From assembly GCA_030646295.1 (NCBI GenBank), contig JAUSND010000015.1:124001-188000 (forward strand): 64,000 bases of DNA. Direction: 5' to 3'. The DNA comes from Moraxellaceae bacterium. Lineage in GTDB: Bacteria > Pseudomonadota > Gammaproteobacteria > Pseudomonadales > Moraxellaceae. Shown here in pieces: positions 40,650-47,425 of the stretch (the stretch's first letter is position 1; each line of letters begins with the position of its first letter). A program made the position numbers and the translations under genes. The notes below the pieces were generated by a model. It was not told the DNA's origin. It saw nothing but the letters and a program-made list of their open reading frames with translations, and made no database searches.

Positions 40650-41981
<1,332 letters not shown>

Positions 41982-41998
41982 GCAAAACGGAGGCGATG

Positions 41999-42685
41999 AT
42001 GCAACCATCCGCCTCCCTTTTTTCGCCGCGGCACTGGCTGCGCGCGCCGGTACGCCGTGTACTGACGCGCCAGCTCTACTTCACCGGTGCCGAGTCCGTG
42101 CTGCTGGTCATGCTGATCGGCATTGCGCTGGGCGCCATCATTGTTGCCCAGCTGCATTACACCTTCGGCCAGAGCGGTGCCGACACCCTTCGGCTGCTGG
42201 CACAACTGCTGTTCAGCGAACTTGCCCCGCTGGTAACGGCGCTTATCCTGATTGCGCGCTCCTCCTCTGCCATGGCCAGCGAGCTTGCCGCCATGCAGGT
42301 GCATCGCGAAATCCGGGTGTTGCGACAGTTCGGCGTGAGCCCCGTGCACTACCTCGTTGTTCCCCGCGTCGGCGGCATGGTGCTGGCGAGCGTGTTTCTG
42401 GCCCTGTATCTGGCACTGGCGGCCCTGCTGACGGCAGCCCTGATGACCGCCGGTCCCAATGCCTGGGACGAGCTGCTGCAACTGGGTGATGTGCTGCCGT
42501 TGCAACGCGTGCTGGGCGGGCTGACGAAAACCGCCCTGTTCGGCAGCGTCATTGCACTCATTGCCTGTCGCGCCGGCTTTCTGGCCGGCTCTGCCGTGAC
42601 CGACATTCCACAGGCGGCATCGCAGGCCGTGGTGCGCAGCCTGATCACCGTCTTTGTGCTGGATGCCTTGTGGGGGCTGCTGTAA
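41999..42685 (+). CDS. MlaE-family ABC permease
   Basis: ARSSSAMASELAAMQVHREIRVLRQFGVSPVHYLVVPRVGGMVLASVFLALYL matches the MlaE coupling-helix region; RBS CGGAGG; start 41996 or 41999. Confidence 0.88.
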   Translation: MQPSASLFSPRHWLRAPVRRVLTRQLYFTGAESVLLVMLIGIALGAIIVAQLHYTFGQSGADTLRLLAQLLFSELAPLVTALILIARSSSAMASELAAMQVHREIRVLRQFGVSPVHYLVVPRVGGMVLASVFLALYLALAALLTAALMTAGPNAWDELLQLGDVLPLQRVLGGLTKTALFGSVIALIACRAGFLAGSAVTDIPQAASQAVVRSLITVFVLDALWGLL

Positions 42686-43206
42686 TGGCTGGCGCCACCA
42701 CTGCCCTGCCCGCGCCCGGACGCTGGGCAGTCGGCAAATTGCCGCGAGAGAAACTCGAAACCGTGCTCGCCGCCGCCAGTGCCAGTGGCCTGCGCACCGC
42801 CTGGCTGGGGCCGGATGCCGGCTTTCTCAGCAACCTGTCCCTGTATGAAAACCTTGAGCTGTTTTTCGAATGGCAACAGCGCCCCGGCACGTTTGCTGAC
42901 GAACTGCAGAGCGCCATGACGCTGCTGGCACTTGATGACGCCGACTGGCTGCACGAGCGTCCGTCACATCAACCGGAGCACATCCTGCAGCATGCCCGCC
43001 TGCTGCGACTGGTGGTGCTGGCGCCCGACATTGCCATCATCGAGCCGGCCGATGCCGGTGCCCTGCTGAGCCTGCCCGCCGCCGTGTTCAGCAGCAGGCT
43101 CCAGCACTGCCGCCTGCTGTTGCGCGCGGCCACATGCCCCGGGTGGCCAGACCTGACGGACCATGCCATGCTCTTTGGCATCACTGCGGAAACACCAGCC
43201 CCATGA
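42685..43206 (+). CDS. Degenerate ABC ATPase-like protein (MlaF position) lacking Walker A
   Basis: Start codon overlaps the stop of the permease gene (TAATG); FLSNLSLYENLELFFEW and LLRLVVLAPDIAIIEPADAGAL resemble Q-loop-region and Walker B strands of ABC ATPases; no GxxGxGKS/T and no LSGGQ. Confidence 0.7.
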   Translation: MAGATTALPAPGRWAVGKLPREKLETVLAAASASGLRTAWLGPDAGFLSNLSLYENLELFFEWQQRPGTFADELQSAMTLLALDDADWLHERPSHQPEHILQHARLLRLVVLAPDIAIIEPADAGALLSLPAAVFSSRLQHCRLLLRAATCPGWPDLTDHAMLFGITAETPAP

Positions 43207-44162
43207 ATCGCCCGCTCCCTGCCGACCCGCGCTTTCTCCGCCTCAGGCTCAAGCTTGGGCTGTTCATCGGCCTTGGCCTGGTGCTGGGACTCAGCCTGCT
43301 GCTGGGCATGGCGGTACGGCAGGGCTATTTCTCGGCCAAGACACCGGTATTCTTCATTGCCGAGAGTGGTGCCGACCTGCGCGCCGGGATGGCGGTCAAA
43401 CTGTCCGGCTTCAAGATTGGCACCGTGCGTCGTGTCGACCTCAACGAAGCAGCACGTGTTGATGTGGAAATGGCGATCGAGGATCGCTACATGAAATGGG
43501 TCAAGACCGACTCGGTTGCCACGCTTGCCCGTGAAGGCATGATCGGCGACAGCTTCATCAGCATTACCCGCGGCACCCCGGAACTGCCGGCACTGACCTC
43601 TGATGATCGGCTGCGCTTTGAACTGGGCCGTGGCCTGGCCGACATTGCCCAGGACGTGCGCAACCGCGTGGTGCCCGTGATTGATGAGCTGCATGTGCTG
43701 CTGAAGTACACGAATGATCCGAAAGGTGATGTGCGCCAGGGGTTTTCTAACCTGAACCGGCTGGCCGCGGAGCTGCGCGAAACACGACGCAAGGTGGACA
43801 CAACGCTGGCCGGCATTGACCAGCTTGGCCGTGAAGATGCGCCGGCAACACTGGCGGCCACGCGCAAGACCCTGGAGCGTACCGACGCGATGCTGCACGA
43901 ACTGGAAACCACCATTCCGGCATGGCGCGCACAGGCAACCCAGACCCTGCAGGCGCTCAACGAAACCGCCAGCACTGCCACCCGCACCGCATCCGAAACC
44001 GAACGCATGCTGAAGGAAACCGCGCCGCAACTACTGAAGGTGCTCAACGAAACCGAAGCCCTCATGCTGGAGAGCCGCTCTGCCGTCAGTGCTGCGCGCA
44101 CACGCTGGCCGTTCACGGGACCGGACGTGGCTCCCGTCAGTGCAGAACCCGGCAAGGACTGA
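43203..44162 (+). CDS. MCE (MlaD-like) domain protein with extended coiled-coil C-terminus
   Basis: N-terminal TM then FFIAESGADLRAGMAVKLSGFKIGTVRRVDLNEAARVDVEMAI; ATGA overlap with upstream gene. Confidence 0.92.
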   Translation: MNRPLPADPRFLRLRLKLGLFIGLGLVLGLSLLLGMAVRQGYFSAKTPVFFIAESGADLRAGMAVKLSGFKIGTVRRVDLNEAARVDVEMAIEDRYMKWVKTDSVATLAREGMIGDSFISITRGTPELPALTSDDRLRFELGRGLADIAQDVRNRVVPVIDELHVLLKYTNDPKGDVRQGFSNLNRLAAELRETRRKVDTTLAGIDQLGREDAPATLAATRKTLERTDAMLHELETTIPAWRAQATQTLQALNETASTATRTASETERMLKETAPQLLKVLNETEALMLESRSAVSAARTRWPFTGPDVAPVSAEPGKD

Positions 44163-44168
44163 CTCACC

Positions 44169-46700
44169 TCAAGACGTCGGCAGCAGTTTCCGGACCAGCC
44201 CGAACCAGAACACGCTGATCATGCCCAGCGCCACCGCGAGTGTCAGCTCCTGCAGCGGCAACGGCGCAAAGCGCAGCAGCCCGCCCAGCACCGGCACATA
44301 CACGGACAGCAGCAGGATCGCGATCGTGATGCCCGTGATCACCCACAACAACGGATTGGGGATGCGCAAGGCGGCCAGCAGCGAATGCGCTCGTGAGCGA
44401 TTGGAAAAAATCAGGGCAAGATTGGCCATCACCAGCGTGACAAACGCAAAGGCGCGTGCCTCGGCTTCCGGCAATTGCTGCAACGCCATCACATAGGCCG
44501 CCATCACCACCAGCAACACACCGGTCCCTTGCAAAAGAGCCAGCAGCAGCGTCATGCCACCAAACAACGGAACGCCGGGATCGCGTGGCGGACGTTGCAT
44601 GACATCCGCCTCGGCCGGTTCGTTCTCGAATGCCAGCGAGCAAACCGGATCAATGATCAACTGAAGAAAAGCGATATGCATCGGGAAGAACATGGCAGGC
44701 AAACCGAACAACATCGGCAGCAATGCCATGCCCGCAATCGGCACATGTACCGCAAGAATATAGGACATGGCCTTGCGCAGATTGTCGAAAATGCGCCGAC
44801 CCAGCTTCATGGCGCGCACAATCGAGGCGAAGTTGTCATCCAGCAACACCAGTGATGATGCCTCGCGTGCCACATCAGTCCCGCGACCGCCCATGGCAAT
44901 ACCGACATGTGCGGCCTTGAGCGCCGGCGCATCATTCACACCGTCACCCGTCATCGCGACAATGTCGCCACTGGCTTTCAGGGCCTGCACGATACGCAGT
45001 TTCTGGTCAGGCGAAATGCGCGCACACACGCTGACGTTGCCAATATGGGCCTGCAGTTCGGCATCACTCATCGCCGCCATTGCTTCGCCCGACAACACTT
45101 CGCCCTCGATGATCCCTGCCTGCGCGGCAATCGCACTGGCCGTTGCCGGATAGTCGCCGGTAATCATCATGACGCGAATGCCGGCCGCGTGACTTTCTTT
45201 TACGGCCGCATTGATTTCAGGGCGCAGGGGATCGTACAACCCGAGCAGGCCGACAAATTCAAAATCGAAATCGTGTTCGCTTGGCGGCCAGTTTTCACCG
45301 GCAAACCGTGACTTCGCCACCGCGAGCACCCGCAGCCCCTGCCCTGCCATGGCATTCACATCGGCCGCAACTTTCTGACGACGCTGATCATCGAGGTGGC
45401 ACAGGTCCACGATGGCTTCGGGCGCACCTTTGGCCGCCACCACATGCACATCACCACTCACCGCACGCCAGACATGCGACATGGCGCGCAGCTCGGGTGT
45501 CAGTGCGTATTCATGCACCAGCTCCCAGTCACGGTGCAGGTGTTCGGTGTTGTCGAGAAAATGCTGGCCGAGCCGGTGAAATGCCTGCTCCATCGGATCA
45601 AAGGGATCGGCTTCGCTCGCCAGGATGGAAAACTCCACCAGCGTATGCACATCCTCCGGCAGCACAGGTGGTGCCGCCTGATAATCCACTGCAATGTTTG
45701 TTGCACCGGCATGCAGGCGCGCAACAGTCATGCGGTTTTCCGTGAGCGTCCCGGTCTTGTCCACGCACAGCACCGAGGTGGCCCCCAGTGTTTCGATGGC
45801 ATTGATGCGTCGCGTCAGGACGTTTTCCTGCGACAGCCGTCGCGCGCCGAGCGCGGGAAAAATGGTGAGCACCACCGGATACTCTTCCGGCAACATGGCC
45901 ATGGCGAGTGCAATACCGGCCAGCAGTGCCTGCAACCAGTCGCCGTGCATGAGCCCGTGGGCCATAACGAGCAGAAGACTCAAACCAAACGCAAGGAGTG
46001 CCAGGGTACGCACCAGCGCAGAAGTCTGCTTTTGCAGGGGCGAGCGCTCTGTCTGCAAGGTATCCAGCGCCGTACCGATGTGGCCGATCTCGCTGCGCGG
46101 CCCCGTCGCCGTAATGCGGGCGATGCCCTTGCCTCGCACCACCAGTGAGCCGGAATACACGAAGGGAAGATTGTCACCACCCGGCCGGCCCGGCACGACC
46201 TCGCCGGTTGCCGCCACTTTTTCTACCGGGACGGCCTCGCCGGTGAGCAGGGACTCGTCTACCTGCATGACGCTGGCCGACACCAGGACGCCGTCCGCCG
46301 GAATCCGGTCCCCCTCGCCAAGAATGACGATATCCCCCTGCACCACGTCACGGCCGGCAATCCGCTGTTGCAGTCCGTCACGAATCACGAGGGCGCGCGG
46401 ACTGGTGAGATCGCGCAAGGCATCAATGGCTTTCTCGGTCTTGCCTTCCTGATACAGCGTGAGCCCCAGCGTGACCAGCACAAAACCGAACAGCACCAGC
46501 CCTTCCTGCAGCTCGCCAAACGCAAGGTACAGGCTGCCTGCCGCCAGCAGGAGCAAGAACATCGGTTCGCGCAGGGTTTCCCGGACAATCGTCAGCAATG
46601 AACGACGCTGCCCTCCGGGCAGGCCGTTGGGGCCATCCTCGGCCAGCTTGCGCGCCGCCTCCGCTGCACTGAGGCCCTGCTGCATTAGATCATTATTCAT
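44169..46700 (-). CDS. Cation-transporting P-type ATPase (P2-type, Ca2+-ATPase-like)
   Basis: CVDKTGTLTENRM; MTGDGVNDAPALKAAHVGIAMGGRGTDVAREASSLVLLDDNFASIV; LLTGEAVPVEK. Confidence 0.94.
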   Translation of the reverse strand: MNNDLMQQGLSAAEAARKLAEDGPNGLPGGQRRSLLTIVRETLREPMFLLLLAAGSLYLAFGELQEGLVLFGFVLVTLGLTLYQEGKTEKAIDALRDLTSPRALVIRDGLQQRIAGRDVVQGDIVILGEGDRIPADGVLVSASVMQVDESLLTGEAVPVEKVAATGEVVPGRPGGDNLPFVYSGSLVVRGKGIARITATGPRSEIGHIGTALDTLQTERSPLQKQTSALVRTLALLAFGLSLLLVMAHGLMHGDWLQALLAGIALAMAMLPEEYPVVLTIFPALGARRLSQENVLTRRINAIETLGATSVLCVDKTGTLTENRMTVARLHAGATNIAVDYQAAPPVLPEDVHTLVEFSILASEADPFDPMEQAFHRLGQHFLDNTEHLHRDWELVHEYALTPELRAMSHVWRAVSGDVHVVAAKGAPEAIVDLCHLDDQRRQKVAADVNAMAGQGLRVLAVAKSRFAGENWPPSEHDFDFEFVGLLGLYDPLRPEINAAVKESHAAGIRVMMITGDYPATASAIAAQAGIIEGEVLSGEAMAAMSDAELQAHIGNVSVCARISPDQKLRIVQALKASGDIVAMTGDGVNDAPALKAAHVGIAMGGRGTDVAREASSLVLLDDNFASIVRAMKLGRRIFDNLRKAMSYILAVHVPIAGMALLPMLFGLPAMFFPMHIAFLQLIIDPVCSLAFENEPAEADVMQRPPRDPGVPLFGGMTLLLALLQGTGVLLVVMAAYVMALQQLPEAEARAFAFVTLVMANLALIFSNRSRAHSLLAALRIPNPLLWVITGITIAILLLSVYVPVLGGLLRFAPLPLQELTLAVALGMISVFWFGLVRKLLPTS

Positions 46701-46726
46701 CAGCTCATCAGCCCTTGCGGCAGCGC

Positions 46727-47425
46727 TTACACGACCGCGCCAAACATCCCGCCAATGCCGGCCGTTATCCCCAGCGCCAATGCGCCCCAGAACATGACCC
46801 GGCCGGCACCCTTCCAAAGGCTGGCGCCACCGGCACGCGCTGCCAGCCCGCCCAGCAGCCCCAGAAATACCAGCGATGCCGCAGACACGGCAGGAATCAG
46901 CGCGCCAGACGGCACCGCCACCACCATCAGCAACGGCATTGCTGCACCTACCGCAAACGTCCCCGCCGACGCCAGGGCCGCCTGCACAGGACGGGCCGTC
47001 ATGGTATGCGAAATACCCAGCTCGTCACGGGCATGCGCACCCAGGGCATCATGGGCCATCAGTTGCAGGGCCACCTGACGGGCCAGCGGTTCATCCAGTC
47101 CGCGCTTCACATAGATATGCGTGAGTTCGTCACGTTCGGACTCGATGTCCGTGGCCAGTTCGTGGCGCTCACGCGCGAGATCTGCCTGTTCGGTATCGGA
47201 TTGCGAACTCACCGAGACGTATTCGCCGGCCGCCATCGACATGGCGCCCGCCACCAGTCCCGCCACACCCGTAATCAGGATGTCATTGCTGGCAGCTCCC
47301 GCAGCGGCCACCCCCACGATCAGGCTGGCGGTCGACACGATCCCGTCATTGGCACCGAGCACGGCCGCACGCAACCAGCCGATACGGTCCGTACGGTGCA
47401 ACTCGGTCAGAAGGGAATGACTCAT
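46727..47425 (-). CDS. VIT1/CCC1 family iron/manganese transporter
   Basis: WLRAAVLGANDGIVSTASLIVGVAAAG; GAMSMAAGEYVSVSSQSDTEQADLARER. Confidence 0.94.
   Translation of the reverse strand: MSHSLLTELHRTDRIGWLRAAVLGANDGIVSTASLIVGVAAAGAASNDILITGVAGLVAGAMSMAAGEYVSVSSQSDTEQADLARERHELATDIESERDELTHIYVKRGLDEPLARQVALQLMAHDALGAHARDELGISHTMTARPVQAALASAGTFAVGAAMPLLMVVAVPSGALIPAVSAASLVFLGLLGGLAARAGGASLWKGAGRVMFWGALALGITAGIGGMFGAVV

Follow-up and report, generated by a model that had tools for sequence, protein, structure and literature searches.

What does an MlaE/MCE lipid transport module do when the protein encoded in its ATPase slot lacks a Walker A motif? The question is raised by three overlapping genes found 3' of purA in the window (the whole 64,000-nucleotide stretch of Moraxellaceae DNA analysed here, to which all coordinates refer unless a locus is named): an MlaE permease gene, a middle ORF of 173 aa and an MCE gene. 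The original prediction, made from sequence alone, had described a Walker-A-less pseudo-ATPase in the ATPase slot of this module, and that description held in profile searches and in a profile-profile comparison with controls. The features on which the following argument rests are these:

40662..41981, plus strand: purA, a 439-aa ORF, the upstream gene of the same apparent operon
41996 or 41999..42685, plus strand: MlaE-family permease without a STAS domain (PF02405; 229 or 228 aa)
42281..42367, plus strand: coupling-helix segment of the permease, ELAAMQVHREIRVLRQFGVSPVHYLVVPR, located in an alignment of 41 permeases
42685..43206, plus strand: pseudo-ATPase (the middle ORF), a degenerate and shortened ABC nucleotide-binding domain of 173 aa, identified by profile and hhalign matches
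42799..42855, plus strand: Q-loop region without its Gln, followed by a retained SNLSLYENL motif, from alignment with the genome's own MlaF
42961..43053, plus strand: signature (lost), R108 (kept; equivalent to MlaF R157) and Walker B (lost), from the same alignment
43203..44162, plus strand: MCE (MlaD-like) protein of 319 aa (PF02470), with an N-terminal transmembrane segment, one MCE domain and a long helical tail

The genes are tightly packed, with 14 bases between the end of purA and the permease gene, and no terminator-like site was found from purA to the end of the MCE gene. For the permease, the ATG at 41999 is favoured as the start because of a GGAGG at positions 41989-41993. The start codon of the middle ORF sits in a TAATG at 42685 and that of the MCE gene in an ATGA at 43203, so that the overlapping starts and stops directly 3' of purA, as originally described, were confirmed. 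Likewise, neither MlaB nor MlaC is encoded at the module locus, both being found in a canonical locus on another contig, and a STAS domain is neither fused nor adjacent. A large P-type cation ATPase gene on the minus strand (44169-46817) is convergent with the module and ends a few bases from the MCE gene.

Both partners of the middle protein are readily recognised. The permease matches the Pfam family MlaE (PF02405) with E=2.6e-45 and the MlaE chains 7ch8_G (4e-14) and 6xbd_G (2e-9) in the PDB, and in the permease tree it falls outside the canonical MlaE group. The MCE protein matches Pfam MlaD (PF02470, E=1.6e-11), and its residues 19-270, most of its length including the helical tail, match PDB 13hr_I (1e-8), an entry described as an Mce/MlaD domain-containing protein with eight chains and 312 aa.

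The identity of the middle protein is less apparent, given that it matched no family in Pfam and NCBIfam, and that a Pfam search of seven members gave no match of any kind, on which basis a STAS/MlaB relative was rejected. A single-sequence search of the PDB returned only a chance lipocalin. When a five-member profile was run against 295 genomes of the order, it retrieved, besides the modules, weak matches with E between 4e-6 and 1e-3, and all those that were read (18 of 18) were ABC ATPases, with alignments that ran from the Q-loop as far as Walker B. ABC ATPase domains also filled all 60 rows shown of a seven-member profile search against the PDB (best E 1e-5). For the hhalign comparison, we used the 30 ABC domains detected by PF00005 in the window's own genome, which were not chosen by similarity to the query; the middle profile reached a score of 67.1 with a probability of 96.7%, against 21.8 for the best of 200 column shuffles, 14.3 for the reversed profile and 14.1 for the permease profile. 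Compared with MlaF alone, the probability was 67.7%. By hhalign, the ABC match was undetectable in the first 35 and last 50 residues of the protein, and an AF2 model based on only two sequences, the window's middle protein and one orthologue, had a pLDDT of 43. The profile searches and the hhalign result with its controls therefore establish common ancestry with ABC domains and, at the level of sequence, identify the middle protein as a degenerate ABC nucleotide-binding domain.

Inspection of the motifs indicates that this domain is very probably a dead ATPase. The Walker A pattern GxxxxGK[ST] is absent in all seven short forms, as are the Q-loop Gln, the LSGGM signature, the catalytic Glu and the H-loop His; the stretch ahead of the Q-loop strand, about 36 residues in all, is too short to accommodate Walker A together with the usual beta-subdomain. 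The reported absence of a P-loop and of LSGGQ was thus upheld. The accompanying claim that the Walker B Asp is replaced by Ile failed: in a gapless register against MlaF the Asp position is occupied by E120 and that of the catalytic Glu by P121. Two elements are kept in the short forms, namely a SNLxxxEN motif C-terminal to the Q-loop and an invariant R108, which aligns with R157 of E. coli MlaF, a residue that contacts the MlaE coupling helix (PMC7784689). An Arg occupies the position equivalent to MlaF R157 in 18 of 18 rows compared; as an Arg here is common among ABC domains of all kinds, its retention fits docking to the permease and does not prove it.

The middle gene is found between the same two partners in six other genomes (G002, G004, G005, G006, G143 and G011), the short form occupying the same slot in all three genera and two families. 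The module adjoins purA in the first five of these, four from the same genus and G143 from another family, and lies away from purA in G011, from another genus of the family; in G026 the same permease is present and the contig ends before the middle gene. Because the short form recurs in six other genomes, a frameshifted fragment of MlaF can be excluded, and the refutation named beforehand, that relatives would reveal such a fragment, was tested and not met, since they keep the same short protein. A weak match in G017 (E 5e-4) was dismissed as chance, with an internal stop and an unrelated frame.

Identity of the middle protein drops to about 25% among the seven genomes with the open reading frame kept. 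Between G000 and G004, the close relative Moraxellaceae bacterium UBA8513 (contig DPJB01000025.1), dN/dS was 0.015 for purA, 0.083 for the permease gene, 0.19 for the middle gene and 0.038 for the MCE gene. The middle gene is thus under purifying selection, and a spurious ORF is ruled out, given that the two remaining forward frames gave values of 1.16 and 6.4. Only canonical MlaE was found in G003, G007 and G008, of the same genus, so that the module is patchy within the genus. It could be argued that decay of the middle gene is under way and that the module is being lost, as the gene's dN/dS lies above its neighbours' and three genomes of the genus lack the module; we consider this very unlikely, however, in view of the persistence of the reading frame in seven genomes at such low identity, its dN/dS of 0.19 and the stronger constraint on the permease and MCE genes.

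Going beyond the original prediction, we found that loss of the ATPase motifs belongs to a wider permease clade. When 369 genomes of the class were searched with the permease profile, 35 of them had a match at E 1e-30 or better. At nine loci (L101-L106, L108, L111 and L123) the neighbouring ATPase has neither the Q-loop Gln nor LSGG (9/9), the Walker A pattern failing in six of them and still fitting in L101, L105 and L123. Five further members of one family are also degenerate, and the Q-loop Gln and LSGG are missing from the 250-aa ATPases of the clade's other members in 14 of 14 cases. All motifs are intact in the ATPases of 20 other relatives, except for one Q-loop Gln changed to Glu. When 42 permeases were placed in a tree, every row with a degenerate partner fell into a single group (99/95), and the same grouping was obtained (100/99) after rows had been added and the long-branch row L105 removed; in this larger tree the row L173 is a partial extraction (18% of columns), and its place within the clade is meaningless. 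The grouping is not circular, because the tree was built from the permease and not from the ATPase. Permeases with degenerate partners are therefore one clade across Gammaproteobacteria-level relatives.

In the sister lineage, the degenerate ATPase of 250 aa is still recognised by PF00005, and its gene lies between the permease and MCE genes, as the middle gene does. Given that the Walker A pattern still fits in L101, L105 and L123, we infer as the likely order of loss that the Gln and the signature went first, followed by the P-loop and then by the shortening seen in the present form.

Some further observations concern loci of this clade. In several genomes of the sister lineage the MCE gene is followed by a fourth gene encoding a lipoprotein-like protein with TPR repeats (PF13424; L133:1903-2835 and L136:2131-3033, also L131, L135 and L137), which might be an outer-membrane partner in place of PqiC. 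At L137 (G617 C11:18500-27500) the degenerate module directly follows murA-hisG-hisD, the usual neighbourhood of the canonical mla operon. In G609 no MlaE permease was found other than that of the degenerate-clade module (L134:4042-4761); the L134 ATPase keeps Walker A, with MSESF at the signature and LLLDNP at Walker B, and its placement in the tree is unsure because of a long branch.

Following the suggestion in the original prediction to look for other mla loci, we found that another contig of the window's genome carries a complete mlaFEDCB-murA-hisG locus, its MlaF intact, and that all eight genomes in which the module occurs encode an intact MlaF. It is therefore possible that the permease borrows the MlaF of mlaFEDCB, either by itself or paired with the pseudo-ATPase in a mixed dimer, and that the module is still driven by ATP. 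Besides the presence of MlaF in all eight genomes, this alternative is favoured by the precedent of Mycobacterium tuberculosis, in which one ATPase, MceG, is common to Mce1 and Mce4 (PMC9947336), and the existence of ABC transporters with a single degenerate site is well established. Against it, the permease coupling helix has diverged from the ATPase-facing motif that its relatives carry: in the alignment of 41 permeases, EIDAL/EQLSS is replaced by EIRVL here and by EIR- or EIW-x-L among module permeases. The middle gene also overlaps both the permease gene and the MCE gene through its start and stop codons, which argues against borrowing. Moreover, an ABC dimer needs, for each of its sites, the P-loop of one subunit and the signature of its partner, and a mixed dimer of MlaF and the middle protein would therefore have no complete site. 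Between the two mechanisms originally proposed, the evidence leans towards ATP-independent transport and away from a borrowed MlaF, without settling the matter.

Our preferred reading is that the module is an accessory MlaE-type MCE lipid transporter with a pseudoenzyme ATPase subunit as scaffold, to which we assign a probability of roughly 0.6; docking in the MlaF position, the absence of ATP use and the lipid cargo are all inferred. The middle protein descends from an MlaF-like ABC nucleotide-binding domain, of which the part kept would be the seat of the permease coupling helix (the Q-loop region, the helical subdomain and R108). With the P-loop, Q-loop Gln, signature, catalytic Glu and H-loop lost, no ATP sandwich would be formed or fired. 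What remains is the portion that holds the permease, and what is missing is the portion that burns ATP; a pseudo-ATPase on which the MlaE dimer is seated is the simplest reading. The protein would most likely dock under this dimer and act there as a structural plug or an assembly factor. Exchange of lipid between the MCE hexamer and the inner membrane would proceed without hydrolysis of ATP, along a gradient or by another energy source, and the helical MCE tail would reach towards the outer membrane.

The shown part of this reading consists of the ancestry, the motif loss, the conservation, the purifying selection, the single clade and the coexistence with an intact Mla system. A bolder version, in which this MlaE/MCE clade gave up ATP hydrolysis and kept the ABC domain as a scaffold, in the present form about one third shorter than a normal ABC domain, while lipid moves without ATP, seems to us as likely to be wrong as right, its ATP-independent transport being inferred. 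Evidence that counts against our main reading is the need of the E. coli Mla system for catalysis, the intact MlaF in all module genomes as a possible energy supplier, the three same-genus genomes without the module, the missing ABC match at the ends of the protein and a structural model too poor to be used. These ends, the length of only 173 aa and the lack of a fused or adjacent STAS domain would also fit a regulator or adaptor that reuses an ABC fragment, for instance in the place of MlaB or with another partner, but the gene sits in the ATPase position, as do the sister-lineage ATPases, and the Arg of the permease contact is kept, which makes this explanation unlikely.

Compared with known systems, the pseudo-ATPase module resembles MlaFEDB of E. 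coli, P. aeruginosa and A. baumannii in combining an MlaE permease, an MCE protein and an ABC-ATPase-derived protein in one operon, but it has no working ATPase, MlaB or MlaC, its MCE protein is longer, with a helical tail, and a complete Mla locus exists elsewhere in its genome. Mpc of Brucella abortus (MpcE, MpcF, MpcD and a Pqi-type lipoprotein; PMC12436622) also joins a permease, an ATPase and a long MCE protein in one operon, and MpcD, with 331 aa and an extended C-terminal domain, is similar to the 319-aa helical MCE protein of the module. In contrast, MpcE has a STAS domain and the Mpc ABC transporter is described as well conserved (PMC12436622), whereas the module has neither STAS nor a working ATPase, and no PqiC-family (PF03886) match was found in its genome. 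MCE systems without an ATPase do exist, given that PqiA and LetA have no ATPase domain (PMC12436622); PqiABC and LetAB are thus alike in being MCE-based without a working ATPase, but PqiA and LetA are a different kind of membrane protein, while the module keeps an MlaE permease and an ATPase remnant. The mycobacterial Mce1 and Mce4 share with it MlaE-like permeases, MCE proteins and the lack of an intact dedicated ATPase in the operon; their MceG, however, is intact and shared, and to our knowledge no pseudo-ATPase is encoded in the Mce1 and Mce4 operons. No description of such a dead-ATPase MCE module was found in the open-licence literature searched.

If our reading is true, the pseudoenzyme would be unusually drastic: a conserved operon encoding an ABC domain that has lost every catalytic motif. 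How far the lineage would have departed is shown by E. coli, in which the MlaF variants K47A and E170Q fail to complement (PMC7367683). Both the energy source of MCE lipid transport and its direction are under debate, and a natural lineage with stepwise loss of the catalytic motifs, in which the permease and MCE protein remain under selection, offers a test of the role of ATP and of whether MlaE can conduct lipid without it.
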